50,348 nt of DNA from Candidatus Gastranaerophilales bacterium (GTDB lineage: Bacteria > Cyanobacteriota > Vampirovibrionia > Gastranaerophilales > Gastranaerophilaceae): contig CALURI010000015.1 of NCBI GenBank assembly GCA_944323135.1, positions 1 through 50,348 of the forward strand, given 5' to 3'. Each line of letters begins with the position of its first letter. Position 1 is the stretch's first letter. Positions 9,578 through 37,614 of this stretch are shown in pieces. Under the pieces are notes generated by a model. The model was not told the DNA's origin and made no database searches. It saw nothing but the letters and a program-made list of their open reading frames with translations. Position numbers and translations under genes: made by a program.

Positions 9578-10624
9578 CTAATTTGTTTTTATAAAACGAT
9601 ATGGTTTTACTATCAGATATTTTCCTATTGGTCTGATAATTGACAAGTATACTCCTAACAGATGGTATTTGTCCATTTGAAGATATCTTTTCCCTAGTTT
9701 ATATCCGTTCATTTTTTCGACTGTTTTTTTATCAAAATCTTTATAGAGTTCAAGTATTTGCTTAATAAAATTAATATATTCTTGTTTCTGTTGTGTAAAA
9801 TATAGATTAGAACAGATATTTATTAATAAATAAAAAAAGCGATTGACAGAATGTAACTTTAATAATTTATTCGTTGTAAGATTATTATTAATATAATTAA
9901 TGCATTTTACTATTTTAGAGAATGTAGAGTATTTGTTTTGTTTAATCTTGTCCATTCCGGCTGTTAAAGAATTTTCCCTTGAAACAGTATAATTATATAG
10001 GTAGTCTTCTATTATTAAAATTTGAGGGTTTATTTCTAGACAATAAAATAAAAAGATACTATCTTCTCCATAATTTAGATTTTTAGGGAATTTAATATTA
10101 TTTGATTGTATAATATTTCTTTTATAAAGTTTATCCCAACATAGAATTTTCATATATTTAAATGTTTCTTCTATTTTGTCATAAAAGAAATATGGTTTGT
10201 TTTTAATTTTATTGGAAGGGTAAAAAAGAGTATCTTTAACCAAAGTATTTGCTTTTATTAGGTTTCTTTGAAAAGATATTAAATCAACATTTGTTTCTAT
10301 TGCTTTTTGGTATAATATTTCACATGCATTAAGTTCTAAATAATCATCACCATCGACAAACATAATATAATCACCAGATGCTGCTTGAATGCCGGTATTT
10401 CTTGCAATAGAAACTCCTTCATTTTTTTTATCAATGATTTTTATTCTATTATCCTGTTCAGCAAGTTTTTGAAGAATTTTTATAGTATTATCAGTAGAAC
10501 CATCATTTACACAGATTATCTCAATATCTTTTAGTGTTTGTTGAGTTAGCGAATTAACACATTTTCTTACATAATCTTCAAGGTTATAAAATGTAGCAAT
10601 TATTGATATTTTAATCTTTTTCAT
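9578..10624 (-). CDS. GT2-family glycosyltransferase
   Basis: Cytoplasmic GT-A fold glycosyltransferase, 348 aa. The nucleotide-sugar site is seen in ISIIATFYN (residues 7-14), VNDGS (39-43) and the metal-binding DGDD (91-94). The C-terminal half is helical and basic, as in capsule and O-antigen transferases of this family. It is the last gene of the long minus-strand operon and overlaps the end of the pyruvyltransferase fusion gene by 14 bases. Donor and acceptor sugars cannot be read from the sequence. Confidence 0.9.
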   Translation of the reverse strand: MKKIKISIIATFYNLEDYVRKCVNSLTQQTLKDIEIICVNDGSTDNTIKILQKLAEQDNRIKIIDKKNEGVSIARNTGIQAASGDYIMFVDGDDYLELNACEILYQKAIETNVDLISFQRNLIKANTLVKDTLFYPSNKIKNKPYFFYDKIEETFKYMKILCWDKLYKRNIIQSNNIKFPKNLNYGEDSIFLFYCLEINPQILIIEDYLYNYTVSRENSLTAGMDKIKQNKYSTFSKIVKCINYINNNLTTNKLLKLHSVNRFFYLLINICSNLYFTQQKQEYINFIKQILELYKDFDKKTVEKMNGYKLGKRYLQMDKYHLLGVYLSIIRPIGKYLIVKPYRFIKTN

Positions 10625-21195: not shown

Positions 21196-21810
21196 TTAAA
21201 TATAATTTTTATAATTTTTTAAAACTTGGATATACAAGCATAATAAAAAATATCCTAAAATATAAGCCCCAAGTACATCTGTAGGATTATGAACTCCAAG
21301 CCATATTCTGCTTAAACCTACAAATATTACCCAAAAAATTGATATTGTAATTAATGAAAATTTTAATTTTTTATTTTTACAAAACTTATTAATATGCCAA
21401 ATTACCATACCCCATAAGCAGAATGTAACTAAACTGTGACTTGAGACATAACTAAAACTGTCAGGATTAATTGTAGTAATTTGAAAATCTAATGGTGGTC
21501 TGTCCCTTTTTATAATAGGTTTTATAATACAATTGAGTAAAAATGTAATTAGCGGGATTGAATATAGAAATATTAAATTTACCCATAATCTTTTTTTTAT
21601 AAAAAATATTCCAAAACTTATTAGCGGGATAACTATCATTATCCAATAAAGTATGCAATCCGGAAGCATTGGAATCCATAAAGGTAAAAAAGATAATTTG
21701 TACTGTAAAAATATAATAAAGCTCCTGTCCCATTGAGTTATTATGGGACAAGAGATTATTAAAACCGTAAGTATTATAAATAAAATTAGTAATGAAAATA
21801 TTTTTTTCAT
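21196..21810 (-). CDS. PAP2-family membrane phosphatase
   Basis: Membrane lipid phosphatase, 204 aa, six helices. All three acid-phosphatase motifs are present: K-x6-RP in KPIIKRDRP, a variant second motif SSHS with the catalytic histidine, and SR-x5-H-x3-D in SRIWLGVHNPTD. I chose the ATG at 21810 over an in-frame GTG at 21831, because the GTG lies inside the upstream gene while GGAAAA sits about seven bases before the ATG. Likely substrates are undecaprenyl pyrophosphate or phosphatidic acid. With the polysaccharide genes around it, recycling of the lipid carrier is plausible. Confidence 0.85.
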   Translation of the reverse strand: MKKIFSLLILFIILTVLIISCPIITQWDRSFIIFLQYKLSFLPLWIPMLPDCILYWIMIVIPLISFGIFFIKKRLWVNLIFLYSIPLITFLLNCIIKPIIKRDRPPLDFQITTINPDSFSYVSSHSLVTFCLWGMVIWHINKFCKNKKLKFSLITISIFWVIFVGLSRIWLGVHNPTDVLGAYILGYFLLCLYIQVLKNYKNYI

Positions 21811-21811
21811 A

Positions 21812-23338
21812 TTATTTTCCGCAGCAAGCACAATTCCCGCTACATGTATTTTTTAAACTTGTTTGAGGTTTTTCTTTTGAACAGAAGTGATCTCTATCTA
21901 CATAATATTCTCCTTCAAGAGGGAATATTGTCATCCAAAGATTCTCTCTCCAATCTTTATCAAGAATTTCTTTTACATCTTTGGAATATTTATCAATTTT
22001 TGATGTGATTTCAGGATTTGTTAAATATGCTGCGGCATTTTCATGAGTTTCATAAGGTTTGAATTCCTGATAATATTTTCTCAAAACTTCAGGTCTGTCA
22101 ACAATCATACAAGGTCTTAGCATATTACCGTCTTCATAAGGAATACCGTCTCTTATTGCGCGCATAAACGGTGCGGCCAGAGCTTCTGTCAAAGTACAAT
22201 CTTTAAGGTTATGTGTAGCTAAATGTACAAATGTACAAGGCTCAACATCTCCTCTTGGATTTACGTGAATATATTGTCTGCCTCCTGCAATACAGCCCAT
22301 CATTTCAGGCCCATCTCCCCAGAAATCTACTGTCATCATAGGTAATGTATTTCTTGCATTATAAACCGCTTTTAAAATTTGTTGTCTTTGTTGAGCATTA
22401 GGTACCATACTTACATCAGGGCTGTCTCCTACAGGTACGTAATGGAAAAACCATGCCCATAAAACTCCTTTATCTGATAACATTTTCATAAATTCATCAG
22501 ATGTTACTTCATCACAATTTTGACTTGTTGCTGTGATACTTGCTCCAAAGAAAATGCCAGCTTTTTTAAGCATATCCATTTTTTCCATAACCATATCAAA
22601 ACAACCTTCTCCACGAACGGCATCTGTATTTTCTTTCAAACCGCCTATTGAGAACATTGGTTGTACGTTACCTAATTTTTTCAATTTTTCAACTGTTTTT
22701 TCTGTTATTAAAGATCCGTTTGTAAATGTTATAAATGTACAGTCATTAAATTCTTCTGCTAGTTCTAAAAATTCTTTTCTTGCAAAAGGTTCCCCGCCTA
22801 CAACAGGGAAAATATGGATACCCATTACATCACGAGCTTCTGTGAATATTTCTCTCCATTTTTCTTTTGTTAAATCTTCTTTTACGTCATATTCATGCGC
22901 CCAGCAGCCCTTGCAATTGAAGTTACAACGTTTTGTAATACTTGCAAGCAATACCGTAGGCGGGAAAAATCCGTTCTTTTTATTAAATTCAGAGCGTTTT
23001 CTCAAATTATCACCGTAATATCCGTTTACAAAGAAGTTTTTAATCCATTTGTTTCTGCAATTAGGATCTAATTCCGTTAAAATCTTTTTCCACCAGTATA
23101 AATGCGGATGTTCTGATTTAAAAAGCCATTGCATTCTTCTGGCATGGTTTATTCCGCCTTTGGATCCGGATATTTTTTCAAAGATTTTTGCAAGGTTTAT
23201 CAATTTTTCTTTGCTGAAATTGTGCCCTAAATAGTTCAGTAACATATCTATGGCAATATCATTAAATCTTAGTTTTAATTTATCAAATTTCCCCATTGAA
23301 TTTGATTGCCAAACTGTGGATTGTTTTTCTACTCTCAT
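21812..23338 (-). CDS. Radical SAM protein with cysteine-rich C-terminus
   Basis: Radical S-adenosylmethionine enzyme, 508 aa. The 4Fe-4S/SAM motif is Cys138-x3-Cys142-x2-Cys145 (RCNFNCKGC), followed by VVGGEPFARKE. An N-terminal helical extension of about 125 residues precedes it. Further cysteines (CIAGGRQ, EPCTFVH) form a SPASM/twitch-like auxiliary site, and the protein ends CSGNCACCGK, a possible third metal site. AAGGAGC lies nine bases before the ATG and supports this start. It runs directly into the PAP2 phosphatase gene. The substrate is unknown; related proteins modify peptides or lipids. Confidence 0.85.
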   Translation of the reverse strand: MRVEKQSTVWQSNSMGKFDKLKLRFNDIAIDMLLNYLGHNFSKEKLINLAKIFEKISGSKGGINHARRMQWLFKSEHPHLYWWKKILTELDPNCRNKWIKNFFVNGYYGDNLRKRSEFNKKNGFFPPTVLLASITKRCNFNCKGCWAHEYDVKEDLTKEKWREIFTEARDVMGIHIFPVVGGEPFARKEFLELAEEFNDCTFITFTNGSLITEKTVEKLKKLGNVQPMFSIGGLKENTDAVRGEGCFDMVMEKMDMLKKAGIFFGASITATSQNCDEVTSDEFMKMLSDKGVLWAWFFHYVPVGDSPDVSMVPNAQQRQQILKAVYNARNTLPMMTVDFWGDGPEMMGCIAGGRQYIHVNPRGDVEPCTFVHLATHNLKDCTLTEALAAPFMRAIRDGIPYEDGNMLRPCMIVDRPEVLRKYYQEFKPYETHENAAAYLTNPEITSKIDKYSKDVKEILDKDWRENLWMTIFPLEGEYYVDRDHFCSKEKPQTSLKNTCSGNCACCGK

Positions 23339-23442: not shown

Positions 23443-24300
23443 ATGGAAAATGTACTTGTAATTAATAACCCTAACGCCGGGAGGAAAAATGCTGCAAAAT
23501 ATAAAAAATTAATTATACAATTTTTATTAAGAAAAAATTGCAGTTTTAAAACTATTGAAATCAGTAAATTGTCAAGTACTGATTTTCAGAATTTTGATAC
23601 TATTTTGGCAGTCGGCGGTGATGGGACAATAAATAAGATTATTCCGTATATTGTGAATACAGATAAAGTGTTAGGCATAATTCCATGCGGAACCGCAAAT
23701 TTGCTTGCTGCAAAATTAAATATCCCGTCTAATCCGAAAAAAGCATTAAAGGTTTTAGATAATTGTAATGTTAAAAATATTGATATATTAAAAGTTCAAA
23801 ACAAATATTCTATTTTAAGAACAGGTCTTGGATATGATTCAGATATAATTTGCAAAACTCCCCAATCACTAAAAAATAAATTTGGTTACTTCGCATATTT
23901 TTTAGCGGGTATTTTATTTGCGCTAAGATTAAGACAAAGAAAATATAATATTTTATTTAAAGATAAAAAATTATCAATTTTAGCAACTTGCATAATTGTA
24001 GCTAATGCCGGCAATATGTTTAAGAATTTAGTTTCTATTTCAAATAATTGCAATCTTGAAGATGGAAAATTTGACGTTTTTATTTTAAAAGTCAGCAATC
24101 CTGTTACTTTTTTTATTGAATTTTTAGGGATAATTTTTAATTATAAAATTTCAAATTTCAAAGCTATGTATTTTCAAGCTTCTAATCTTTTGATAAAAAA
24201 TGATTTTATAACCGGACATATTGACGGAGAAAAACAAAAATTTAAAGACGATATTGAAATAAATATCGTCCCTAAATCTGTTAAAGTTTTTGGTAATTAA
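23443..24300 (+). CDS. Diacylglycerol/lipid kinase family protein (YegS/DgkB-like)
   Basis: Soluble, membrane-associating lipid kinase, 285 aa. NNPNAGR (residues 8-14), GGDGT (58-62) and IPCGTANLLA are the ATP-binding and catalytic signature of the DAGK catalytic domain; GHIDGE near the end matches the conserved C-terminal motif. It would phosphorylate diacylglycerol or a related polyprenyl or sphingoid lipid. It is a lone plus-strand gene between minus-strand operons, with only three bases to the SLBB gene end, and has no obvious Shine-Dalgarno site. The nearby PAP2 phosphatase would catalyse the reverse reaction. Confidence 0.9.
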   Translation: MENVLVINNPNAGRKNAAKYKKLIIQFLLRKNCSFKTIEISKLSSTDFQNFDTILAVGGDGTINKIIPYIVNTDKVLGIIPCGTANLLAAKLNIPSNPKKALKVLDNCNVKNIDILKVQNKYSILRTGLGYDSDIICKTPQSLKNKFGYFAYFLAGILFALRLRQRKYNILFKDKKLSILATCIIVANAGNMFKNLVSISNNCNLEDGKFDVFILKVSNPVTFFIEFLGIIFNYKISNFKAMYFQASNLLIKNDFITGHIDGEKQKFKDDIEINIVPKSVKVFGN

Positions 24301-24303
24301 TTT

Positions 24304-26817
24304 TTACCATTTATTAATTGCGAATGCCATAACAATAATTGATGCTATACCTTTCAGTGTATCACAAACAGGTGTAATCCAGTCATTGCCCGCAATTCTT
24401 CTTGGAACAACAATTGTATCTCCCGGTTCAATATTGCTGTGATTAGAAATTTTTTCGGCACGTCCGTTGACAGATACTTTGTATAATCTGAATTTGTTTG
24501 CGTTTGGAGTATATCCGCCAACTTCTTTTATGTAATATTTTGCGTTTGAACCTTTTTTATATACAAATGATTGCTCGTTGTATACTTCACCAATTACGCT
24601 TACGTGATTTGAAGTCCTTGGAATATAAATATCATCACCGTCTTGAACTTCGATGTTATCTAAATCTTTTATTTTATTTAAATCATTGCTTTTGATATTT
24701 AATGCAATTTGCCCGTTATATTTGTTTGCAATCGTTAAATCATCTGCTTTCAACATTTCAAGCATTTGCATTTTTGACTCTTGATCACCTTCTGAGGGTT
24801 TGTATGCACTTGCCATTCTGCCTTCTATAAGTTTTATGTCGCGTTCGTTATTTTTATGAGCAAGTTCAACTTGTTTCCCTTGAAGATTTGTTCTTTTGAA
24901 AATAACACCTCTCAAATCAGCTTCTGAAGTTAGTCCGCCTGCCATTTCAATCATATCTTTTAGTCGTTTACCTTCAACAAATGTAAAAACACCGGGTTTT
25001 TTAACAAAGCCTGAAACCTTTACGGTTTTCATAACTTCGTTGCCGCGTAAAGTCCTGAAAAATATTTTATCTTCTGGCATGATTGGAATTGATTTAATTC
25101 TGTCTGAATTAATCATAATATCATAGAGATAATATACTTCAGTTGTTCCGTCTTGTCTTGAGATTTCAACAGCTATATTTTCTGCAGGAATTAATTTATT
25201 TGAATTTGCTGTGCCTGCAGCCAGTTGTACATCGTTTTCTTCTACGGAACCTTTATATGATATTTCGGGTTCTTTTGAGTCTTCTGGAACTTTTTTGTCA
25301 ACGTCTGATTCCAAAAATTGAATATCAGTCATTACATCATTTAACATCATATTTGCAGTATATGTTAAATGTTTGGGAATATTTATACATCCGTAAACAT
25401 CGACAAATTGTGAATTTGTGTTTTTATATACATTAATTATGTCTTTCGGTTGTAACACCGGATCATTCATTCCCGCAAAAAATTCTTTTAAAAATACAGG
25501 AATAGTTTCTATTGAATTATCTTTTCCTGAAATTCTTCTGATTACTGCTTGATTTATGAAAGTTTCTTCGAGTAATTCGTCTTCACTTTTCAAAATATCT
25601 GATAATCTCATTCCTTCTTTATATGCATAAGTTGCGGGATGTTTAACATTCCCTTGAATTGTTACGATATTTTCTGCGGTATTATATAATTCTCTGAATT
25701 CAACAGCATCACCGCTTTTTAGTTTAGTATTTTTAGCTTCGCTCCAGGCAATATTTTCAGCTGTACGTTGTTTTGAATTTGCATCAAAACCTGTTAATGT
25801 TACTTCTGTTACTTGTGTTGCAGGTAAAAGACCTCCTGCAAAAGTTATAATTTTTTGTAAATTTTCACCGCTTTTAATTTCGTAGATACCCGGTACTGTA
25901 ACCCCATTTTTTATTGCGACAACATCTCCGATTTTATCTACAAAGATTTTATCATTTGGTCTTAATATAATTCCGTCATCGTTGCCTGAAAACAGAGCTT
26001 TATAGATATCAACATTTTTTGATTTGTTATTGGATGTGTATGTGATGTTTCTTAAAGTACCTGTCTTTTTAACCCCGCCGGCTGCATTTAAGGCATCAAG
26101 TACAGAGGAATTATTGCCTACAAGAATTTTGCCGGGTCTGTTTACTTGACCATATACAAATACTGAAAATTCTTGTCCTGATGCAACTGTTAATTTTACT
26201 TTGATACTTTTATATTTTTGTGAAGCTAATCTGTTTGCTTCATTTTCAACTTCGCTTATTGTTCTGTTTTCTGCTTTTACAAGGCCTACTCCTTGAATAA
26301 ATATGGAACCTTTTGAATCTACTTCTGTTTTAGTATTAGGATTCAATAAATTTGCTCCTGATATAGTCATAACATCAATGGAGTCTCCATATAAATATAC
26401 ATTGACTTTTTCACCGATGCTTAATTTATAATTGCTGTCAAATTTGCCTGCTGTTCCGTTTACAGATGAAGTTGTTGATGTAAACAAATCATAGCCTATT
26501 TGTTGTAACGGAGTTCCTGTAATTTCACTTTCTTTCCCGTTAAATAATTTTTCAATAGGGCTTAATTCAAATGCCAGTTGATTTGTTTGCAAAGATGTTT
26601 GGTAATTATTACTAAATGCATTTGTATTTAATTCTGTTTCTTCATTTTGTACTTGTTTTAATTTTGAAGATAAATTTTGAGTTTGTACTGATTGATATTG
26701 GTTGTTCATTTGTGATGTTGAGTTATTTATTTGAGCAGAATTATTTATTGTTGCTGCAAATGTTGCTGTCTCTGAACAGAATGTAATTAATAATAATAGT
26801 GCAATTATTTTTTTCAT
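24304..26817 (-). CDS. Multi-SLBB polysaccharide export protein (Wza-like)
   Basis: Exported 837-aa protein with a clear type I signal peptide (KKIIALLLLITF ... ATFAA). After a Ser/Gln/Asn-rich linker comes a polysaccharide-export domain (about residues 135-210, LSIGEKVNVYLYG), then about six SLBB repeats recognisable by VYGQVNRPG, NGVTVPGIYEI, IQGNVKHPA, VYGCINIPK, VSGFVKKPGVF and VIGEVYNEQ. It ends in a hydrophobic helix (IASIIVMAFAI). Wza itself is about 380 aa with two or three SLBB domains, so this is a much larger relative. No lipobox precedes the cysteine in the signal. It probably forms the periplasmic and outer-membrane export conduit for the polysaccharide made here. Confidence 0.88.
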   Translation of the reverse strand: MKKIIALLLLITFCSETATFAATINNSAQINNSTSQMNNQYQSVQTQNLSSKLKQVQNEETELNTNAFSNNYQTSLQTNQLAFELSPIEKLFNGKESEITGTPLQQIGYDLFTSTTSSVNGTAGKFDSNYKLSIGEKVNVYLYGDSIDVMTISGANLLNPNTKTEVDSKGSIFIQGVGLVKAENRTISEVENEANRLASQKYKSIKVKLTVASGQEFSVFVYGQVNRPGKILVGNNSSVLDALNAAGGVKKTGTLRNITYTSNNKSKNVDIYKALFSGNDDGIILRPNDKIFVDKIGDVVAIKNGVTVPGIYEIKSGENLQKIITFAGGLLPATQVTEVTLTGFDANSKQRTAENIAWSEAKNTKLKSGDAVEFRELYNTAENIVTIQGNVKHPATYAYKEGMRLSDILKSEDELLEETFINQAVIRRISGKDNSIETIPVFLKEFFAGMNDPVLQPKDIINVYKNTNSQFVDVYGCINIPKHLTYTANMMLNDVMTDIQFLESDVDKKVPEDSKEPEISYKGSVEENDVQLAAGTANSNKLIPAENIAVEISRQDGTTEVYYLYDIMINSDRIKSIPIMPEDKIFFRTLRGNEVMKTVKVSGFVKKPGVFTFVEGKRLKDMIEMAGGLTSEADLRGVIFKRTNLQGKQVELAHKNNERDIKLIEGRMASAYKPSEGDQESKMQMLEMLKADDLTIANKYNGQIALNIKSNDLNKIKDLDNIEVQDGDDIYIPRTSNHVSVIGEVYNEQSFVYKKGSNAKYYIKEVGGYTPNANKFRLYKVSVNGRAEKISNHSNIEPGDTIVVPRRIAGNDWITPVCDTLKGIASIIVMAFAINKW

Positions 26818-26871: not shown

Positions 26872-27930
26872 TTATGTAATAGCAATTTCCATCAAAGATT
26901 TTATTGCAGGCCATTCAAGTTTCCACAAGCCTGAAGCGTCAAGTGCATAATTCCCTACACAGGCGAGCTTGCAGTCTTTACATTTATTTACTGTTTCAAT
27001 AAACAGTGGATCTTTTATTACATCTTTTAATGGTCTGTTTCTTACGCTTATAAATGGTTTTCTGTCATAGCAGCGTAACATATCACCGTTTGAATAGATT
27101 ACTGTTGCAATACGAGGCCAATGACATTCGTAATAAGTTTTCTTATTAATTATGTAATCCATAAAGTAATATGAATTTCTAATCGGGTAACCGTTTTTCT
27201 TTAACTCTTTTATTTTTATAAACATATCGGCAAGCTGTTCATTTTCAAGCTCTGTTTCTACAACATTTTGAGCTTCTTCAGGTCTTGATGCAGCTTTATT
27301 TACCGTAAAATACAATAAAATATCAGCATCTTTACAATATTGAGCAACTTCTTTTATTTGTTCAAAATTAGTTTGGGTTGATACTGTACAGCATACGTAA
27401 ATTCTCATTTTGGGAGAATGAATTTTATGATATTCAATGCCGGACATTACTTTATCGCAAATTCCCGGCATGTGTCTGATATCATCGTGGGCTTTGCCTA
27501 TTGCATCTAATGATACAAACATTAAATCAGTATATTTTGCAAAATCAGGGTTTGATTCTAAATACCAGCCGTTAGTTGCAATTTTTGTATAAAGACCTGC
27601 ATCATGTGATGCTTTGCAAATTTGTGCGAAATCTTCTCTTAATAAGGGTTCTCCTCCCCACAAAATGCTGTCCATATAACCAATTTGTCCTGCTTCCGTA
27701 AGAAGTCTTACAATTTCTTCAGTCGGCATATCATCATTGCCTTTTTTAGATTTCCAAAAACAGAAGTCGCAATCACAATTACATTTGCTTGTAACCATCA
27801 GTGAAAAGCATAAAGGTTTAGGTGTTTTTGAAAGTCTGCTTGCAATACATTCTAATGCCCCGCCTGCAAGATGTCTGTAATATTTTAGGCGTTCGAAAGT
27901 CATTTCATTTCTTGATTTTGTAATCATCAA
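26872..27930 (-). CDS. Radical SAM/SPASM-type protein
   Basis: Radical SAM enzyme, 352 aa, with Cys50-x3-Cys54-x2-Cys57 (KCNCDCDFC), the LWGGEPLLRED motif, and a C-terminal cysteine set (CHWPR, RCYDR, KCKDCKLAC) typical of SPASM or twitch auxiliary clusters. It lies between the CoA-activase-like gene upstream and the SLBB export gene downstream, all on the minus strand. It is distinct from the 508-aa radical SAM protein at 21812-23338. Peptide maturation, or modification of a lipid or sugar, are both possible; nothing in the sequence decides. No small precursor peptide gene is evident next to it. Confidence 0.85.
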   Translation of the reverse strand: MMITKSRNEMTFERLKYYRHLAGGALECIASRLSKTPKPLCFSLMVTSKCNCDCDFCFWKSKKGNDDMPTEEIVRLLTEAGQIGYMDSILWGGEPLLREDFAQICKASHDAGLYTKIATNGWYLESNPDFAKYTDLMFVSLDAIGKAHDDIRHMPGICDKVMSGIEYHKIHSPKMRIYVCCTVSTQTNFEQIKEVAQYCKDADILLYFTVNKAASRPEEAQNVVETELENEQLADMFIKIKELKKNGYPIRNSYYFMDYIINKKTYYECHWPRIATVIYSNGDMLRCYDRKPFISVRNRPLKDVIKDPLFIETVNKCKDCKLACVGNYALDASGLWKLEWPAIKSLMEIAIT

Positions 27931-28019
27931 TATCCCCTCTCAGCTATTTATAAATTCAAGACTATCATAAACAAATTATTGGAACAAAAAATATTACCCA
28001 AATGGATAATATTTTTACA

Positions 28020-29171
28020 TTAATTATTAATTTTTTTTAATTGTTTCCTTTTAATCAAATCTATAAAAGCTTCAATTCTTGTTATATAACCGGCTTTGCC
28101 TGTTTGTTCGTCAAGTACCAAAGAAAGAGTTGGAATATCTTCTTCTCTGCTGACTTTTGGCAAGATATTTTGAGCTACAATTTCAGGCATGCAAGAAAAT
28201 GGTGAAATATGAATGATTCCATCTATCCCATGTTTTGCAGCATAAACTGTATCTCCGATTGTTTCTATACATTCTCCGCCGATTGCGCGTTTCATATATT
28301 TTTTTGCATATTTGACGGATCTTTCTCTATGAGATTCTTTGTGATAAAAAATTGAAGGTTTTAATACATGTTCAAGCCAATCCCCAAACATAATCTGTCT
28401 TTGAACTTCTACTCCCATATCTCCAAGTTCTTTTTCAATATTTTGGTTGGTATAAGGATCCAAAAGTACAAAAAATTCTCCTATAAGGTAAACAATCGGA
28501 ACTTTTTTATTTGTATCTATCGGGATTTTTTTAAAATCTTCTATTATCCTTTGTTTTAATTTTTTTGCTTCCCATACAGAATTTGTTTCATCAGTTATTT
28601 CAAGCCATTTATTATAACATTTTTCGGCATCACCTTTATGTAGTTCTCTTGGTCTTGTATAAAAAAGCAAACGTTCTGCAGTGTCAATTGCAAAAAATTT
28701 GTTAAAACCCAGACTAAAACCTTTATAATAACACCAGGGATTTATGCAATGAGTTACATGCCAAAAAGCGTGAAGTGTCTGTTTCATTTTACTTTTATAC
28801 ATATCAAAAATAACCATGTCGAATTTATAGCCCATTGATTTTAGAGTTTTTTGAGCCATTTTTGTGTAATTCCCGAGTCTGCAAGAACCAGGAGCTTGAA
28901 ACATCATAAGAGTATTAGCACCTTGTTCTAAAGCCATAATATAATTCGCCAGATTTAATTTGTATGGAAGACAAATCCCTTCAATACTTTTTCTTACTCC
29001 TATTTCTAATGTTTCATTACTGTTAGGAGGAGGTATTACAACTTCTGCTCCTAAAGATAGTAAAAGAGCTTTTAATGGGATATCAATTCTACCCATTCGC
29101 GGCCAGGCAATAATCCTTTGTTTTGTCGGAATTTTATTTTCCATTTTAACATTTTCTGTTTTGTCATTCAT
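28020..29171 (-). CDS. CoA protein activase / 2-hydroxyacyl-CoA dehydratase-like iron-sulfur protein
   Basis: 383-aa protein of the 'CoA protein activase' group related to the D component of 2-hydroxyacyl-CoA dehydratases and double-cubane iron-sulfur proteins. Diagnostic segments are PRMGRIDIPLKALL, VVIPPPNSNETLEIG, GICLPYKLNL, APGSCRLGNY and SPFSCMPE, with cysteines at each likely cluster-ligand position. The C-terminus LVLDEQTGKAGYITRIEAF matches that of the protein at 30254-31339, so the two are distant paralogues and may work as a pair. The ASKHA ATPase that normally energises such proteins is not in the window. The substrate is unknown. Confidence 0.85.
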   Translation of the reverse strand: MNDKTENVKMENKIPTKQRIIAWPRMGRIDIPLKALLLSLGAEVVIPPPNSNETLEIGVRKSIEGICLPYKLNLANYIMALEQGANTLMMFQAPGSCRLGNYTKMAQKTLKSMGYKFDMVIFDMYKSKMKQTLHAFWHVTHCINPWCYYKGFSLGFNKFFAIDTAERLLFYTRPRELHKGDAEKCYNKWLEITDETNSVWEAKKLKQRIIEDFKKIPIDTNKKVPIVYLIGEFFVLLDPYTNQNIEKELGDMGVEVQRQIMFGDWLEHVLKPSIFYHKESHRERSVKYAKKYMKRAIGGECIETIGDTVYAAKHGIDGIIHISPFSCMPEIVAQNILPKVSREEDIPTLSLVLDEQTGKAGYITRIEAFIDLIKRKQLKKINN

Positions 29172-29192
29172 AAAAAATATCCTATCACAAAT

Positions 29193-30245
29193 TTATTTTA
29201 CCAGTATTGGGTTTGAGTATATCCAAGGATTATTTTTATATTTTGCTTCAAATCTGTATTTGCCGAATTTTTCAATTTTTAACTTAATTTGGTCTGATAT
29301 CGCAGAATAAAAATGTTCTCCATTTCTTAGAATTTTTATAGAAGCTTTTTGGAAAAGATTTATATATAAATATGTATTTTCTGTGAAATTTACACTTTCT
29401 CCGCAGCAGGCTTGTTCAATATCATTTTTAATCATAAATACCGGAAGATTTTTTGATTTTGAATACATTTTATTTACAATTATATTTTTTCCGTATTTTA
29501 TTGAATTTAAGATGTTTTCTTTTGCTTCTTCAAAATTATCCGGTAATTTATTATTAAGAATTAAAATATTGTTTAATGTTTTAAAACAGTATTCATAGGG
29601 GAAAATTTTTATGGGAATAATATATTTGGTAACTTTTAACGCGTGAGCATCAACTCCTGCTATTGCCGGAACAATTTTGGTATTTTTTATATTTAAATCA
29701 TCCCACCAAATAAGAGTTTTTGCATTTGGGCCTTTTATCAGTTTATGTCTGAAAAAATAAGCATAAGCTATTTTTAAAATATTTGTATCATCATAATTAT
29801 CAGCCCAGTCAGAAAACCAATTCCATATTTCTAAACCGTCTGCATTTATTGATTTATCCAGCCATTTTATTGGTTTTGCTTTATTTCTTCTTTTATCTGA
29901 TTCATCAGGGTGGGTGACAAAACCAAAACCGCCTTGATGTTTTACGGCTTCTATATAAGTTTTTGGATTTTCAGAAGGTTTTACTTCATTTTTAATATTC
30001 AATGCTAAATAATGATTATTATATTGGGGAGATATTTCTTCTCCTACTATTACGTAAACCCCGTTGTAAATCCCCTCTTTTATTTCCATTTTATTATGGT
30101 CTGAAATTATGATCCAAAAAAGTCCTGCTTTTTTTGCAGCTTTTGTTATTTCATCAATATTACCTGTGCCGTCTGAATATTCGGAATGTATATGTATGGC
30201 TCCGGAATATAAAAATAATTTGTTTTTTAATTTTTGTTTATTCAT
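29193..30245 (-). CDS. PHP-domain metal-dependent hydrolase
   Basis: 350-aa protein with an N-terminal PHP domain: His18-x-His20 (HIHSEYSDG), Asp49-His50 (SDHN), GEE, a conserved His in NNHYLAL, VTHPDES and GVDAHA supply nearly the complete trinuclear metal ligand set, so the enzyme should be an active phosphoesterase. The C-terminal ~110 residues form a beta-rich domain of unknown role. It is not a DNA polymerase or histidinol phosphatase by length or context. It is placed between the two CoA-activase-like genes, with gaps of 8 and 21 bases, suggesting a shared pathway I cannot name. Confidence 0.82.
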   Translation of the reverse strand: MNKQKLKNKLFLYSGAIHIHSEYSDGTGNIDEITKAAKKAGLFWIIISDHNKMEIKEGIYNGVYVIVGEEISPQYNNHYLALNIKNEVKPSENPKTYIEAVKHQGGFGFVTHPDESDKRRNKAKPIKWLDKSINADGLEIWNWFSDWADNYDDTNILKIAYAYFFRHKLIKGPNAKTLIWWDDLNIKNTKIVPAIAGVDAHALKVTKYIIPIKIFPYEYCFKTLNNILILNNKLPDNFEEAKENILNSIKYGKNIIVNKMYSKSKNLPVFMIKNDIEQACCGESVNFTENTYLYINLFQKASIKILRNGEHFYSAISDQIKLKIEKFGKYRFEAKYKNNPWIYSNPILVK

Positions 30246-30253
30246 ATCAAAAA

Positions 30254-31339
30254 TTATTTCATAGATCCTGTTAAAATTTTGTTATTGTTAATTTCGACAA
30301 TTTCAGTAATCTGTTTTGTGATTTTATGTGAATTTTTGTCAATAAGTCTTCTTTTCTTTCTCATTAACATATCAATAAAAGCTTCCAATCTTGTAACAAA
30401 ACCGGCTTCCCCTGTATGTTCATCAATTGTCAAATGAATTAAGGGCATGCCTTTTTCTTTACAATGATATGTCATTTCATCTACCATTAATGAATCAGGT
30501 CCGCAGCCGAATGCTGACAGAGCAATTATGCCATCAACTTTATTATTTAATAAATAATATGCCGCAGTTCCCGTTAATTCTAATTCATTGGCCCAGTATT
30601 GAATTTCTCCCAAAGCTTTAATAGATGAAATAGCTTTTTCACGGGAAACGTTTATTGATGTATAAACTTTTACATCCATTTTTTCCAATTTTTTTATAAG
30701 GTTCATTGAAATCCTATCATCAAAAAGATTATACCCATGAGCCATAATTACAACAGATAATGGTTTTACAATTTCAACTGTATTTTTAATTAATTTTCCT
30801 TCAATTGCATTTTTAAGAGCTTCTTGATAACAAATTCCGGATTGAGTCATTTTACAAAATCTGTTATATGTTTCCCACCCGGCATTAATTGCATTTTTAA
30901 TACGAATAGAATCTTTAATTTCAAAAGCATTTGCAATTTGTGTACAAAAGTTTTTAAAATCTATATTTTCAGTTTTATCAAGGGTTGGTTCTATCATTGT
31001 AAAATCACGATTAATTACATTTCTTATAATTTCTGGCAACCCTCTTATCTTGCTGCAATTATTAATTTTATAATCTGTAGATTGAATTGATGGTACAAAA
31101 ATTACGTTGCAGCCTTTATCAAGTAAATTTATTATGTGGCCGGCAAAAACTTTTACAGGTAAACAGGTATCGGATACTACATATTTACACCCTTCATTTA
31201 TGATTTTTGTTGTAGTTTTGTCAGATAAAATTATTTTTATCCCTAGTGATTTAAAAAATCCATAATAAAAAGGGTAACTATTATAATATGAAATTGCTCT
31301 TGGTATTCCTATTTTTTTATTAAAAAAAGAATTATTCAT
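30254..31339 (-). CDS. DUF2229-type acyl-CoA dehydratase activase-related protein
   Basis: 361-aa protein with the N-terminal signature KIGIPRAISYYNSYPF, Cys51, SDTCLPVKVF (Cys59) and later ALSAFGCGPDS, matching the DUF2229 / activase-related family that accompanies 2-hydroxyacyl-CoA dehydratase-like enzymes. It ends with LTIDEHTGEAGFVTRLEAF, the same tail signature as the protein at 28020-29171. Both proteins likely bind iron-sulfur clusters and act together in an ATP-driven one-electron reduction, but no ATPase subunit is present locally. It is the first gene of this minus-strand string. Confidence 0.83.
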   Translation of the reverse strand: MNNSFFNKKIGIPRAISYYNSYPFYYGFFKSLGIKIILSDKTTTKIINEGCKYVVSDTCLPVKVFAGHIINLLDKGCNVIFVPSIQSTDYKINNCSKIRGLPEIIRNVINRDFTMIEPTLDKTENIDFKNFCTQIANAFEIKDSIRIKNAINAGWETYNRFCKMTQSGICYQEALKNAIEGKLIKNTVEIVKPLSVVIMAHGYNLFDDRISMNLIKKLEKMDVKVYTSINVSREKAISSIKALGEIQYWANELELTGTAAYYLLNNKVDGIIALSAFGCGPDSLMVDEMTYHCKEKGMPLIHLTIDEHTGEAGFVTRLEAFIDMLMRKKRRLIDKNSHKITKQITEIVEINNNKILTGSMK

Positions 31340-31647: not shown

Positions 31648-32682
31648 TTGTCCATATCGGAAAAGTTAGAAATTTTTATAATTACATTTAACAGAGCTAA
31701 AAAACTTCAAAATGTTCTAAGTCAAATTTTTATGGAAAATTCTCCAGTTAAAAATTTTGATATAACTGTCATTGATAATAATTCAACTGATTTTACAGAA
31801 GATGTTGTATCTAAATTCCAGGCTTTAAACAGTAATTTGAAGTATGAAAAAAATAAATATAATATAGGTGGAAATGCAAATATTGTAAAAGCTTTTTATA
31901 AAGCGAATAAAGATTATGTATGGATTCTTGCAGATAATGATGATTTATGCTGGGATGGCTGGGAACAAGTTGAACAGTTTATAAAAGAAGATTCTGATGC
32001 TGTTGTTGTTGCAACGTATGAATGTCCAAAATATGATATTGCTCAATTATATGATCAAATGACATTTTTACCGGGTGTTATTTATAAAACAAATAATATT
32101 GATGATACTGTTATGGGGAATATGGAATTTAATATTTCAAATATGTTCCCTCATCTTGCACTGGCTTCAAAATTGATAAATGAAAATAAAAAGATTTCAA
32201 TTGTAGATAATGCGATTGTCTTAGTCAGAGATAATTGTGATGAAAACGGTAAATACGTTTATACAAGAGGTTATAAATCTGATGATGTTCATCCGTTGCA
32301 AAAAGGGATGAATTGGATTAGCGGTTATGCAAATTCTTTATATTTGATAAAAGATAAAAAAATTAGAAATTATATTATTTCGCATAATCGGTATTGTACA
32401 GAATTGAATTCTGCAAAAGTTTTATTTTGGTTAAAAAAAGAACCTGAACAAAATTTATATAATTATTTATGTGTTTTTGCAGTCCTTTCATTTTGTGATA
32501 AATTAAGGTTTATATTAAGTTTGATTTTTTATTATTCTTTATACAGAATTATTTATATCAGTAAAAGAGAACGTTTTAATGATATAAATAAAATATTATC
32601 TGTACAGTTTGATTTAAGACTTTTCTCATTTATAAAAATTAAAATATTTAAAATAAATAAAAATATAGAAGGAGTATATTAA
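31648..32682 (+). CDS. GT2-family glycosyltransferase with TTG start
   Basis: GT-A fold transferase, 344 aa. FIITFNRAKKL (residues 10-20), VIDNNS (41-46) and ILADNDD (93-99) form the nucleotide-sugar and metal site. The start is TTG, supported by AGAGG seven bases upstream; the first ATG lies after the nucleotide-binding strand and would destroy the fold. The C-terminal part has a hydrophobic stretch (LSLIFYYSLYRIIYI) that may anchor it to the membrane. It opens the plus-strand operon, and its stop overlaps the rfbF start by one base. Confidence 0.88.
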   Translation: MSISEKLEIFIITFNRAKKLQNVLSQIFMENSPVKNFDITVIDNNSTDFTEDVVSKFQALNSNLKYEKNKYNIGGNANIVKAFYKANKDYVWILADNDDLCWDGWEQVEQFIKEDSDAVVVATYECPKYDIAQLYDQMTFLPGVIYKTNNIDDTVMGNMEFNISNMFPHLALASKLINENKKISIVDNAIVLVRDNCDENGKYVYTRGYKSDDVHPLQKGMNWISGYANSLYLIKDKKIRNYIISHNRYCTELNSAKVLFWLKKEPEQNLYNYLCVFAVLSFCDKLRFILSLIFYYSLYRIIYISKRERFNDINKILSVQFDLRLFSFIKIKIFKINKNIEGVY

Positions 32683-33485
32683 TGAAAGTTGTAATACTTG
32701 CAGGTGGCTTAGGGACAAGATTATCTGAAGAAACAAGATTGATGCCAAAACCAATGGTTGCAATTGGTGGCAAACCTATATTGTGGCATATTATGAAATC
32801 ATATTCTTATTATGGATTTAATGATTTTATAATATTGACAGGTTATAAATCTCACGTGATTAAAGATTATTTTGTCCACTATTATCAGCAATATTCAGAC
32901 ATTACAGTAGATATGCTGAATAATACTGTTGATATTCACAGAATAGAAACAGAACCTTGGAAGGTTACAATGTTGTATACCGGATTAGATACAATGACCG
33001 GCAGCCGTATCAAAAAAGCTCAGGAATATATTGGGAATGAAAGGTTTTTGTTGACTTATGGTGATGGTGTTTCTGATGTAAATATAAAAGAGCTTGTTAA
33101 ATATCACGAAAACAAAGGAAAGTATTTAACAATGACTGCAGTTCAACCATCAGGTAAATTTGGAGCTTTAAATCTTTCATCTTCAAATGATGTATTATCA
33201 TTTAAAGAAAAACCGAAAGGAGATGGAGCTTGGGTTAATGGAGGTTTCTTTGTTTGTGAACCGGAAATATTTGATTATATTGATGGATCGCATAATAAAG
33301 TTATTTTTGAACGTGAACCGCTGGAAAATCTTGCTCAAGACAGACAATTATGTGCATATAAGCATGACGGATTCTGGAAACCTATGGATACATTGAAGGA
33401 TAAAATTGATTTGACTGCAATGTGGGAAGAGGGGAATGCTCCTTGGGCAAAATGGTTAAATAAAAAAGAGGTGGTAAATGTTTAA
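32682..33485 (+). CDS. rfbF: Glucose-1-phosphate cytidylyltransferase
   Basis: Makes CDP-glucose from glucose-1-phosphate and CTP, the entry step of CDP-3,6-dideoxyhexose synthesis. At 267 aa it has the family length. GGLGTR (residues 8-13), MPKPM (21-25), GGKPILWH and LTYGDGVSDV match RfbF/AscA proteins closely, as does FKEKPKGDGAWVNGGFFV. Good upstream GGAG site. It overlaps rfbG by eight bases. With the next two genes it forms the classical rfbFGH block in canonical order. Confidence 0.95.
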   Translation: MKVVILAGGLGTRLSEETRLMPKPMVAIGGKPILWHIMKSYSYYGFNDFIILTGYKSHVIKDYFVHYYQQYSDITVDMLNNTVDIHRIETEPWKVTMLYTGLDTMTGSRIKKAQEYIGNERFLLTYGDGVSDVNIKELVKYHENKGKYLTMTAVQPSGKFGALNLSSSNDVLSFKEKPKGDGAWVNGGFFVCEPEIFDYIDGSHNKVIFEREPLENLAQDRQLCAYKHDGFWKPMDTLKDKIDLTAMWEEGNAPWAKWLNKKEVVNV

Positions 33486-34566
33486 TAATATTTATAAGGG
33501 CAAAAAAGTTTTTTTAACAGGGCATACAGGGTTTAAAGGTAGTTGGCTTGCTCTATGGTTGACTTCAATGGGTGCAGATGTCTGCGGATATTCATTAGCA
33601 CCTAATACTCAGCCGTCTATGTTCGAAGAACTTGACATAGAAAATAAAATATCAAAATCTGTAATCGGTAATATTTTAGATAGCGGCAAATTAGAGCAGG
33701 CTATGATAGAATTTCAACCGGATATAGTTTTTCATTTAGCGGCACAGCCTCTTGTAAGATTGTCTTATGCAGAACCGCTTTTGACATATCAGACAAATGT
33801 TATAGGGACTTTAAATGTTTTAATTGCAGCTGAAAAATGTAAGTCAGTTAAAGCTTTTGTTAATATAACTACAGATAAATGTTATGAAAATAAAGAAATT
33901 AACAGAGGATATAGAGAAGATGAACCTATGGGCGGATATGATATGTATTCATCATCAAAGGGCTGTGTAGAAATCATGTCTTCATCATTCAGACGTTCAT
34001 TTTTGCAAGGCGAAGAAGGTTACGCAATGGCGACTGCCAGAGCAGGAAATGTAATTGGCGGTGGTGATTGGGCTTTAGATAGATTAATCCCTGACTGTGT
34101 CAGATATATTAATTCCGGACTGAAAATAGAAATAAGAAATCCGATTGCAGTCAGACCTTGGCAGCATGTATTAGAACCTTTATCCGGATATTTACTTTTA
34201 GGACAAAAACTTTTGGAAGAAGGTAAAAAATTTGCAGAAGGTTTTAACTTTGGACCAAATGAAGAAAGTGTTTTAAAGGTTGCAGAAGTTGCCCAAATGG
34301 TTGTAGATAATTATGGTAAGGGAGAAGTTGTTGTTCATAAAAAAGATAATTTGCACGAGGCTAATCTTCTTATGTTGAATATTGAAAAAGCTGAAAAAGT
34401 TTTAGGCTGGACACCAACTTATACTGCAGAAGTTGCAATTGCCAAAACAGTTGATTGGTATAAACATTTTTATGCAAAAGATGCAGATATGTATGAATAC
34501 ACATTGAAACAAATACAAGAATATGAGGGAAATATAAAATGGAACAAGAATTACGCAATAAAGTAA
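33478..34566 (+). CDS. rfbG: CDP-glucose 4,6-dehydratase
   Basis: Short-chain dehydrogenase/reductase-fold enzyme, 362 aa, converting CDP-glucose to CDP-4-keto-6-deoxyglucose with bound NAD. The Rossmann motif is GHTGFKG (residues 15-21); the catalytic triad segment is YSSSK (in YDMYSSSKGC), with ITTDKCYENKE before it. AVRPWQHVLEPLSGY is typical of RfbG rather than dTDP-glucose dehydratases. It overlaps rfbF by 8 and rfbH by 28 bases. Confidence 0.95.
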   Translation: MFNNIYKGKKVFLTGHTGFKGSWLALWLTSMGADVCGYSLAPNTQPSMFEELDIENKISKSVIGNILDSGKLEQAMIEFQPDIVFHLAAQPLVRLSYAEPLLTYQTNVIGTLNVLIAAEKCKSVKAFVNITTDKCYENKEINRGYREDEPMGGYDMYSSSKGCVEIMSSSFRRSFLQGEEGYAMATARAGNVIGGGDWALDRLIPDCVRYINSGLKIEIRNPIAVRPWQHVLEPLSGYLLLGQKLLEEGKKFAEGFNFGPNEESVLKVAEVAQMVVDNYGKGEVVVHKKDNLHEANLLMLNIEKAEKVLGWTPTYTAEVAIAKTVDWYKHFYAKDADMYEYTLKQIQEYEGNIKWNKNYAIK

Positions 34567-35918
34567 AAGACGCAGCAAAAGAATATTACAACGCTATATA
34601 TGGCAAAAAAAGAGAATTTGATTATATTCCGCCAAGCGGAAAGCTTTTGGGAGAAGAAGAATTATTAAATATGATTGATGCTTCTTTAGATATGTGGTTA
34701 ACTGCTGGAAGATTTAATAAAGAATTTGAATCAAAATTCGCGAAATATTTGGGTGTCAAATTTGCACTTTCAACTAATTCAGGCTCAAGTGCTAATTTGT
34801 TAGCATTTTCTGCTTTGACTTCCCATAAATTGGGTGATAGAGCATTGAAAAAAGGTGATGAAGTTATTTCTGTTGCAGCTGGGTTTCCAACTACAATAAA
34901 TCCTATTATTCAACATGGTATGGTTCCTGTGTTTGTTGATTGTGAGATAGGAACTTATAATATTGACGCAGATAAAATAGAAGAAGCAATTACTCCTAAA
35001 ACAAAAGCTATATTCTTGGCTCATACATTAGGAAATAGTTATGATTTAGATAAGATAATGTCACTTGCGGAAAAATATAATCTTTGGGTAATTGAGGATA
35101 GCTGCGATGCGTTAGGCGGAGAATATAAAGGCAAGAAAATCGGTACAATCGGTCATATCGGAACATTTAGTTTTTATCCTGCTCACCATTTAACAATGGG
35201 AGAAGGCGGTGCTGTTGTAACAAATGATCCGCAATTGTATAAGATTATAATGTCATTTAGAGATTGGGGCAGAGATTGTTGTTGTCCTCCCGGACGTGAT
35301 GGCGTTTGCGGAAAGAGATTTTCTCAACAGCTTGGAAATCTTCCGTTTGGGTATGACCACAAATATACTTATTCTCATATCGGATTTAATTTAAAAATTA
35401 CTGATTGGCAAGCAGCTTTAGGTTGTTCTCAAATTGATAAATTAGATAGATTTATTGGTATAAGAACTCATAATGCGGCTCGTTTGACTGAAAAATTATC
35501 TAAAATGAGTGAATATTTAATTCTTCCAAAAATCAATAATGGTGTAAAACCTTCTTGGTTTGGCTATTTGATTTCGGTAAAAGAAAATGCACCATTTACA
35601 AAACAAGAAATGGTTGAGTATTTGGAAAGTCATAAAGTTGGTACACGTCAATTGTTTGCAGGTAATATTTTGAGACAGCCTATGATTGTAGATAATGATG
35701 TTAATTTAAGAATTGGCAATTCAAATTTGATAAATTCAAAAGAATTGACAGATGAACATTATAAATTGTTACCTAATACAGACTTTATTATGAATAATAC
35801 TTTCTGGGTCGGTACATTCCCTGCATTAGGAGACGAAGAAATCGATAGAATTGCGGGAACTATTATTGAATTTATTAATAATAAAGTATCTAATGCTTGT
35901 GTTGTTGCAGGGAAATAG
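34539..35918 (+). CDS. rfbH: CDP-4-keto-6-deoxyglucose 3-dehydrase (E1)
   Basis: PMP-dependent iron-sulfur enzyme, 459 aa, that removes the 3-hydroxyl from CDP-4-keto-6-deoxyglucose. SFYPAHHLTMGEGG carries His216-His217 where ordinary aminotransferases of this fold have the PLP lysine, the hallmark of the E1 dehydrase. A cysteine cluster (Cys247-249 and Cys257, CCCPPGRDGVC) fits the [2Fe-2S] site. The reaction normally needs an NADH-dependent flavin/iron-sulfur reductase (E3; AscD/DdhD), which is not in the window; a housekeeping reductase could substitute. The product is CDP-3,6-dideoxy-4-keto-glucose. Confidence 0.95.
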   Translation: MEQELRNKVKDAAKEYYNAIYGKKREFDYIPPSGKLLGEEELLNMIDASLDMWLTAGRFNKEFESKFAKYLGVKFALSTNSGSSANLLAFSALTSHKLGDRALKKGDEVISVAAGFPTTINPIIQHGMVPVFVDCEIGTYNIDADKIEEAITPKTKAIFLAHTLGNSYDLDKIMSLAEKYNLWVIEDSCDALGGEYKGKKIGTIGHIGTFSFYPAHHLTMGEGGAVVTNDPQLYKIIMSFRDWGRDCCCPPGRDGVCGKRFSQQLGNLPFGYDHKYTYSHIGFNLKITDWQAALGCSQIDKLDRFIGIRTHNAARLTEKLSKMSEYLILPKINNGVKPSWFGYLISVKENAPFTKQEMVEYLESHKVGTRQLFAGNILRQPMIVDNDVNLRIGNSNLINSKELTDEHYKLLPNTDFIMNNTFWVGTFPALGDEEIDRIAGTIIEFINNKVSNACVVAGK

Positions 35919-35929
35919 GTGGTAAAATA

Positions 35930-36727
35930 ATGGGAAATTCAATACTAAGTGAGATAAGAAAAACTATCGTAAAAATGGTGCATAAAGCGTGTGTATCACA
36001 TGTCGGTGCTGCAATGAGTGTAGTTGATATATTGTATACTTTGTACTTTGATGTCGCAAATATTAGTAAGGACAATATCAATTCACCTGATAGAGATATA
36101 ATTATATTGAGTAAAGGACATTCAAGTGCAGCTTTATACTCTGTTTTATATCATAAAGGTTTTTTGTCAAAAGATTACATTGAAAATTATTCAATTGATG
36201 GCGGCTCTTTACCTTGTCATATTGATAAAGAAAAGTCTCCGTTTTTTGAAGTTTCTTCAGGATCATTGGGACATGGACCTTCTTTGGGTGCTGGTTTTGC
36301 ATTAGCAAAAAAAATGGATAAAAATTCAGGAAGAGTCTTTGTGATATGCGGGGATGGAGAGTGTAACGAGGGCTCAGTATGGGAAGCTTTGATGTTTGCT
36401 TCTACACACAAACTTGATAATTTTGTATTTATTGTTGATTATAACAAATTTCAAGGTTTCGGAGCTACCAATGAGGTTATAAACCAATCAAATATTGCAG
36501 AAAGGGTAAAGTCTTTTGGGTTTGATACTTTAGTTATTGACGGGAATAATCTTGATGAATTAAAAACAGCATTGAATCACAAGAGTGATAGACCTGTTGC
36601 AATTATTGCTGATACAACAAAAGGTAAGGGTGTGTCATTTATGGAAAACAGACTTGAATGGCATTACAAATCACCTAATGATGAACAGTTAGAAATTGCA
36701 TTAGCTGAAATTGAGGAGAAATATTAA
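35930..36727 (+). CDS. Split transketolase, N-terminal (ThDP-binding) subunit
   Basis: 265-aa protein corresponding to the first half of transketolase. SKGHSS (residues 61-66), GSLGHGPSLG and the thiamine diphosphate motif GDG (141-143) ... Asn172 (VDYNKFQG) are intact. I place the start at ATG 35930, seven bases after AGGTGG; an upstream in-frame TTG at 35897 lies inside rfbH. It overlaps its C-terminal partner by one base. Its position right after rfbFGH suggests a sugar-specific ketol-transfer enzyme rather than pentose phosphate metabolism. Confidence 0.9.
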   Translation: MGNSILSEIRKTIVKMVHKACVSHVGAAMSVVDILYTLYFDVANISKDNINSPDRDIIILSKGHSSAALYSVLYHKGFLSKDYIENYSIDGGSLPCHIDKEKSPFFEVSSGSLGHGPSLGAGFALAKKMDKNSGRVFVICGDGECNEGSVWEALMFASTHKLDNFVFIVDYNKFQGFGATNEVINQSNIAERVKSFGFDTLVIDGNNLDELKTALNHKSDRPVAIIADTTKGKGVSFMENRLEWHYKSPNDEQLEIALAEIEEKY

Positions 36728-37614
36728 TGAGAAAGACTTTTATAAATACATTAATAGAGCTTGCAAGGAAAGATAAAGATATTGTATTAATTACTCCTGA
36801 TATGGGCTTTTCTGTATTAGAACCGTTTTTTGAGGAATTTCCGGAACGTTCTATAAATTGTGGAATTGCCGAACAAAATGCTATTTCATTAGCGGCAGGA
36901 TTGGCTTTGGCCGGTAAAAAACCTTATGTTTATACAATTATCCCATTTCTTGTGGAAAGAGCATTTGAACAAGTCCGTTTAGATGTAGCTTATATGTGTA
37001 CAAATGTTAAATTAATAGGTATTGGTGCAGGTTTTACATATGGCGCGGCTGGAGCAACTCACCATGCGATTGAAGATATTTCTTTGATGAGAAGTTTACC
37101 TAATATGACCGTGTGTTGTCCGGGGGATAACAATGAGGCTGAACAACTTGTTCGTCAGTCTATTGAAACTATAGGACCGATGTATATAAGAATAGGTCGT
37201 CACAACAGAGGTGTTTTTGATAATAACAAAATTGAGATAGGAAAGGCTTCTGTAATAAAAGAAGGAAAGGGTATTGCTGTAATTTCAACAAGCAATATGC
37301 TACCTGATGCTGCAGGTTATTGTAAAAAATTGGAAGCAGAAGGTAGAAACCCTTATTTTATAAGTATGCATACCGTAAAACCTATCGATAAGACTATTAT
37401 TGAAAAATTGGTAAATGATGGAGTTGAAATTCATACACTTGAAGAACATAGTATAATCGGCGGTTTAGGAAGTGCTGTTGCAGAAGTAATTGCAGAAAGC
37501 GGTAAAGGAGTTAAATTCAAAAGAATAGGAATTCCTGATACATTTTCACACTATATAGGTAGTCAAAAATACATTAAAGAACAATTCGGTTTATACTTTG
37601 GTGAGGAATATTAA
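36727..37614 (+). CDS. Split transketolase, C-terminal subunit
   Basis: 295-aa partner of the preceding gene, with the pyrimidine-binding and C-terminal domains. The catalytic glutamate that activates ThDP is Glu49 in GIAEQNA; GAAGATHHAIEDI and GPMYIRIGR are family motifs. Together the halves total about 560 aa, shorter than housekeeping transketolase (about 660), as is usual for split forms in sugar and cofactor clusters. In this context it could transfer a two-carbon unit to the 4-keto group made by RfbH, giving a branched-chain sugar. That is inference. Confidence 0.9.
   Translation: MRKTFINTLIELARKDKDIVLITPDMGFSVLEPFFEEFPERSINCGIAEQNAISLAAGLALAGKKPYVYTIIPFLVERAFEQVRLDVAYMCTNVKLIGIGAGFTYGAAGATHHAIEDISLMRSLPNMTVCCPGDNNEAEQLVRQSIETIGPMYIRIGRHNRGVFDNNKIEIGKASVIKEGKGIAVISTSNMLPDAAGYCKKLEAEGRNPYFISMHTVKPIDKTIIEKLVNDGVEIHTLEEHSIIGGLGSAVAEVIAESGKGVKFKRIGIPDTFSHYIGSQKYIKEQFGLYFGEEY

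Follow-up and report, generated by a model that had tools for sequence, protein, structure and literature searches.

The window analysed here, contig C15 (CALURI010000015.1, 50,348 nucleotides) of a 1.95-Mb Candidatus Gastranaerophilales genome, encodes two distantly related proteins, COG3580a and COG3581a, that we interpret as the subunits of a duplicated reductase of the BCR/HAD (benzoyl-CoA reductase/2-hydroxyacyl-CoA dehydratase) type. Candidatus Gastranaerophilales are gut-dwelling, non-photosynthetic relatives of cyanobacteria. It is very likely that the two proteins form a BCR/HAD-type reductase pair with an activase acting in trans. The explanation as a whole is more tentative and falls somewhat short of an even chance: a duplicated reductase of the PlsA branch, energised in trans, would act with two radical SAM enzymes (rSAM1 and rSAM2) on a surface lipid or lipid-linked substrate. 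What is new here is the duplicated, split PlsA-branch reductase with its activase in trans and its tie to two radical SAM enzymes and a polysaccharide island; the chemistry is not unprecedented.

An earlier note on this DNA had delineated a cluster of four genes at positions 26872-31339. All four open reading frames exist on the minus strand, with Pfam or NCBIfam support for each (Table 1). Read along that strand, they encode a COG3580/DUF2229 protein (361 amino acids), a PHP metallohydrolase (350 amino acids), a COG3581 protein (383 amino acids) and rSAM1 (352 amino acids). The SLBB/Poly_export gene follows directly after rSAM1, and is the polysaccharide export gene that the note had placed next to the group.

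Two proteins of the catalytic BCR/HAD type

Both COG3580a and COG3581a match DUF2229 (PF09989) and end in a tail matched by the Pfam HGD-D model. The tail signature common to the paralogues (DEHTGEAGFVTRLEAFIDML and DEQTGKAGYITRIEAFIDLI), already picked out in the earlier note, is the C-terminal motif of HGD-D and BCR/HAD proteins and aligns with the double-cubane protein (DCCP, 6eno/7yyl). The AlphaFold2 model of COG3580a (pLDDT 88.2) has its best VIA match in (R)-2-hydroxyisocaproyl-CoA dehydratase (3o3m, Z 16.4, 285 aligned residues, rmsd 4.1), and that of COG3581a (pLDDT 86.9) in DCCP (7yzm, Z 15.9, 297 aligned residues, rmsd 4.4). The top Foldseek and VIA matches of both models are exclusively BCR/HAD subunits, aligned along the full length of each model, and unrelated folds reach a Z of about 10 or less. 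The window proteins thus share the fold of DCCP (6eno, 7yyl) and HadBC (3o3m) over about 280-310 residues (Z 15-16), together with the C-terminal motif, but are only 11-16% identical to them and score 12-15 bits against the NCBIfam model for DCCP, which has a cut-off of 350.

Three cysteines per subunit at the cluster positions are invariant, which answers a check on which the earlier note had made its reading depend. C59, C95 and C279 of COG3580 are present in 53/53 Gastranaerophilales and throughout a set of 30 diverse sequences, and C67, C97 and C327 of COG3581 are invariant in an alignment covering Gastranaerophilales and other anaerobes. The three-cysteine positions of both subunits also recur in the fused PlsA-type proteins of Tepidibacter and Sporotomaculum. 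Judged from their sequences and structural models, COG3580a and COG3581a are catalytic-type BCR/HAD subunits and not activases. The description of two distant dehydratase-activase superfamily paralogues flanking the PHP gene consequently stands for the superfamily and the arrangement, and not for the activase type. We infer a bound iron-sulfur cluster in the two proteins, as well as the type of that cluster, and they would presumably pair as a COG3580a-COG3581a heterodimer. DUF2229 also scored above its cut-off in the control genomes of Thermus composti and Deinobacterium chartae, which belong to aerobe-type genera although BCR/HAD chemistry is oxygen-sensitive.

The activase and second subunit copies are encoded elsewhere

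In characterised BCR/HAD systems, an ATP-hydrolysing activase dimer pushes one low-potential electron into the iron-sulfur subunits, and a carbonyl or ester is reduced. The driving ATPase, which the earlier note reported as missing, is indeed absent from the cluster but is present on contig C5 of the same genome, where a single stand-alone activase of the ASKHA type exceeds curated cut-offs (G000:C5:10770-11771; PF01869; TIGR00241 at 187 bits, cut-off 125). We thus rejected the idea of a missing ATPase. The activase was found in nearly all relatives (51/58), including those without the window cluster. The genome also encodes a second COG3580 (COG3580b, contig C10) and a second COG3581 (COG3581b, contig C9). 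These two housekeeping copies and the activase are unaffected by the presence or absence of the cassette formed by the COG3581a, PHP, rSAM1 and SLBB genes. We infer that COG3580a and COG3581a use the shared activase in trans.

Operons of the COG3580-COG3581-activase (COG1924-type) triad were found with phmmer in Firmicutes and other anaerobes, and trees place both window subunits with the stand-alone COG3580 and COG3581 forms. The window has the same two families in the same order with the same cysteines, and an activase in the same genome. However, the three genes adjoin in the triad, whereas here the activase stands alone on another contig and the PHP gene lies between the subunits; unlike the triad, the window pair is a duplicate tied to rSAM1 and rSAM2. 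No consistent pathway was apparent among the neighbours of the Firmicutes triads examined. In Tepidibacter (L094:4779-6942), two divergent radical SAM/SPASM genes divergently adjoin the triad.

The earlier note knew of no described pathway with this combination; the domain pair is, however, known from PlsA/PlsR and Ger. The plasmalogen synthase PlsA/PlsR acts on phospholipids, reducing their sn-1 ester to a vinyl ether, and the glycerol ester reductase Ger makes alkyl ethers; these enzymes, described as anaerobic ATP-driven reductases, belong to the DUF2229 branch (PMC9702350, PMC13274423, PMC12838417). They contain the same DUF2229 and HGD-D-like regions and three-cysteine patterns as the window pair, but they are fused proteins (about 1430-1460 amino acids in the examples L142 and L143) whose single chain also includes one or two activase domains, whereas the window proteins are separate. 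Direct membership in PlsA/Ger was rejected, as the fused architecture is absent and the sequences are very distant. Literature searches for DUF2229, COG3580/COG3581 and "activase-related" proteins returned nothing useful, and a search for plasmalogens in Melainabacteria gave only a passing mention.

Gene order, co-occurrence and ancestry

The order COG3580-PHP-COG3581(-rSAM1-SLBB) recurs in about 60 of the 80 loci that were fetched for comparison, confirming synteny in relatives, the second check proposed in the earlier note. Across 33 genomes of the genus, COG3581a, PHP, rSAM1 and SLBB are all present in 13 and all absent from 19; the remaining genome is incomplete and has a COG3581 fragment at a contig end. 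The all-or-none pattern is significant for each gene (Fisher 2e-8 each, uncorrected for relatedness). Two further genes track the cassette: rSAM2 is detected in 12/13 of them and the lipid kinase DAGK in 11/13, and both are found in 0/19 cassette-less genomes. This pattern favours a functional link without proving one, since most of the losses may each have been one deletion.

The locus is a surface-polysaccharide island of the Wzx/Wzy/Wza type, which raises the alternative that the reductase, PHP and radical SAM genes have unrelated functions and hitch-hike on one island gained and lost as a block. We consider this unlikely. It would fit the patchy presence of the set, with about 8 presence/absence changes on a rough two-gene tree (shuffle mean 13; the nodes are weakly supported and the count is indicative only), and also the indifference of the activase, COG3580b and COG3581b to the cassette. 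It fits poorly with genomes G022 and G025, where the COG3580-PHP-COG3581 and rSAM1-SLBB-DAGK-rSAM2 modules lie on different large contigs and yet are both present, or with the deep families lacking SLBB in which rSAM1, COG3581a and rSAM2 still largely co-occur. COG3581, rSAM1 and rSAM2 are also unusually conserved (pairwise about 74-98%), whereas PHP drifts (45-68%). The rSAM1-SLBB half is inverted in two loci (L026 and L027).

The two subunits differ in their history. For COG3581, the tree puts the split between the window copy (a) and the housekeeping copy (b) before the divergence of the families within the order. For COG3580, it shows the window copy as a duplicate of COG3580b that arose later and has a long branch. 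In some deep lineages (L087/L088 and G046), rSAM2, COG3581a, COG3580 and COG3581b stand side by side in this order, and a single COG3580 accompanies two COG3581.

The PHP metallohydrolase

The metal-ligand residues of the PHP protein (H18, H20, D25, H50, E70, H78, H112, D199 and H201) are conserved in 58/58 sequences. It shares these residues and the C-terminal region with the CehA/McbA PHP family, but falls short of the cut-off of the family model (NF038032, 60.2 bits, cut-off 80). We considered PHP as the defining gene of the system and rejected it as primary. Its orthologs also occur in lineages without COG3581a, next to a DeoC/LacD aldolase in the cases tested, and for this reason we take PHP to be a later recruit to the cluster. 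Pairs of a PHP ortholog and a DeoC/LacD-type aldolase were located at L233:6221-7908, L235:4920-6613 and L236:5645-7378.

The radical SAM enzymes

The best NCBIfam match of rSAM1 is TIGR03961 (PTO1314 radical SAM) at 114 bits, under the cut-off of 306, and its motif cysteines are all conserved in 54/54 sequences. The earlier note had included this enzyme in the cluster, but it is not the oldest neighbour of the pair; deeper lineages instead have rSAM2. In the window, rSAM2 lies 4.7 kb from COG3581a, beside the lipid kinase and a PAP2 phosphatase. Since deep lineages place rSAM2 directly upstream of COG3581a (L087/L088, G046, G049, and one copy in G036), it is, judged from gene order, the oldest visible partner of COG3581a.

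This link, the strongest as well as the oldest, would together with the presence of double-cubane proteins among the closest folds also suit a maturation set, in which the radical SAM proteins assemble or alter a special (double-cubane-like) cluster in COG3581a, or in which the pair feeds electrons to the radical SAM enzymes. We give this explanation little credence, as COG3581b and the Firmicutes triads as a rule lack such a radical SAM neighbour, the broad family of rSAM2 also occurs in genomes where it does not adjoin COG3581, and the cysteines that are invariant throughout the family number three per subunit and not six.

The family of rSAM2 is a large bacterial group of radical SAM proteins that carry the motifs GCWA...GCIAGGR; records of Desulfallas and Desulfovirgula contain relatives at 37-39%. 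We considered rSAM2 as a possible membrane-spanning lipid synthase (Mss); its match to the solved tetraether synthase 7tol is weak (E 0.002). Genes for a FixC-like flavoprotein and a FixX-like ferredoxin immediately precede rSAM1 in G022 and lie close to it in G025 (L271:12830-14424 and L244:3542-5166), and are absent from the window and the other loci examined. In these two genomes they are a possible low-potential electron supply.

A proposed mechanism and its substrate

In the explanation that we favour, COG3580a and COG3581a would be the two iron-sulfur subunits of a BCR/HAD-type reductase that arose by duplication, works anaerobically with ATP as its driving force and falls in the branch of PlsA and Ger. 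The activase on contig C5 would serve both this pair and the housekeeping pair COG3580b/COG3581b in trans as an ATP-driven source of low-potential electrons. The reductase would then pass electrons singly to a carbonyl or ester group, either in a membrane lipid or in a lipid-linked precursor of a surface glycan, rSAM2 and rSAM1 would act on the same product by C-H radical chemistry, phosphate would be stripped by PHP and PAP2, and DAGK and the polysaccharide genes would supply or use the product.

A redox modification of a lipid, sugar or CoA compound, as the earlier note proposed, is plausible. Our preference for a lipid or lipid-linked substrate comes from the co-inheritance of a lipid kinase and a polysaccharide exporter with the reductase, and from the PAP2 lipid phosphatase alongside; this choice of substrate is itself doubtful, and we offer it as a possibility. 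A more specific proposal is unlikely to be right in this form: that Gastranaerophilales have a second BCR/HAD reductase of the lipid type which works with two radical SAM enzymes, lipid phosphatases and a lipid kinase to make a lipid not yet described, ether-linked or cross-linked through C-C bonds, or a lipid anchor of that kind for the exported polysaccharide.

Several observations weigh against the lipid-based explanation. In the trees, long distances (branch lengths >2) separate the window proteins from the fused PlsA-type enzymes, so the substrate of the pair cannot be deduced from that of PlsA. Homologues of PlsA without an activase domain are common in anaerobes and their role is stated as not known (PMC13274423, 2026). 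The neighbours of the Firmicutes triads (spore germination, methylmalonyl-CoA mutase and an amino-acid enzyme) give no hint of lipids, and the PHP orthologs of other lineages, which occur without COG3581a, stand beside the aldolase in the cases tested. Finally, the surroundings are those of a polysaccharide island, and proximity may reflect island turnover.

An alternative is a genuine BCR/HAD reductase or dehydratase that acts on a soluble CoA thioester or on a phosphorylated or nucleotide sugar, carrying out a dehydration or deoxygenation for the neighbouring unusual-sugar pathway. Enzymes of CoA esters are the nearest of the solved structures, a DeoC/LacD aldolase accompanies a PHP ortholog, the presence of the whole set follows that of the export gene SLBB, and the window contains a CDP-sugar set with a transketolase pair. 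Nevertheless, the functionally tested members of the DUF2229 branch in the cited literature all act on phospholipid esters, and the CDP-sugar genes lie on the opposite strand, outside the conserved set: RfbF and GT2 were found in almost none of the loci, so that we found no support for including the GT2/CDP-sugar genes in that set. We regard a soluble substrate as rather unlikely.

If a surface lipid is modified as proposed, ether-type or radical-made lipids would occur in widespread, little-studied gut bacteria. The genus offers a natural experiment in close gut relatives with and without the pair, which is always alongside the same radical SAM and export genes. Comparing the lipids or surface glycans of such strains could assign a function to such an activase-less pair.

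Transcription modules and neighbouring genes

The gaps between COG3580 and PHP (8 bp) and between PHP and COG3581 (21 bp) are short, whereas the 89-bp gap between COG3581 and rSAM1 holds a hairpin with a U-tract. Because of this hairpin and these distances, COG3580-PHP-COG3581 is probably one transcript and rSAM1-SLBB the next. The hairpin was not among the sites returned by a G+C-based consensus terminator scan. The start codon of rSAM1 is probably the ATG at 27927.

Table 1. Features of the locus in the window, from high to low coordinates.
Feature	Position	Strand	Evidence
COG3580/DUF2229 subunit, window copy a	30254-31339	-	PF09989 2e-48; Cys C59, C95, C279
PHP metallohydrolase, CehA/McbA-like	29193-30245	-	PF02811 5.6e-8; CehA/McbA model NF038032 2.2e-16
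COG3581 subunit, window copy a	28020-29171	-	PF09989 3.8e-8 and HGD-D tail 2.3e-6; Cys C67, C97, C327
Terminator-like hairpin and U-tract between COG3581 and rSAM1	27982-28016	-	-11.4 kcal/mol, z -2.93
rSAM1	26872-27930	-	PF04055 1.5e-11, weak SPASM; CxxxCxxC and SPASM-like C-terminal Cys
SLBB/Poly_export outer-membrane polysaccharide export protein, Wza-like	24304-26817	-	PF10531, PF02563
YegS-like lipid kinase (DAGK)	23443-24300	+	PF00781 1.7e-21
rSAM2, radical SAM/SPASM	21812-23338	-	PF04055 1.4e-17
PAP2 lipid phosphatase, weakly undecaprenyl-diphosphatase SepP-like	21196-21831	-	PF01569 1.8e-19; NF047884 8e-6

In the stretch 32682-37614, the CDP-sugar genes (RfbF-like, dehydratase and aminotransferase-type) are followed by a split transketolase pair, a gene set that suggests a branched or unusual sugar. 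At 10611-13049, the window encodes an 812-amino-acid protein in which a ferredoxin/FrhB-type coenzyme F420 hydrogenase beta domain is fused to a polysaccharide pyruvyl transferase domain.

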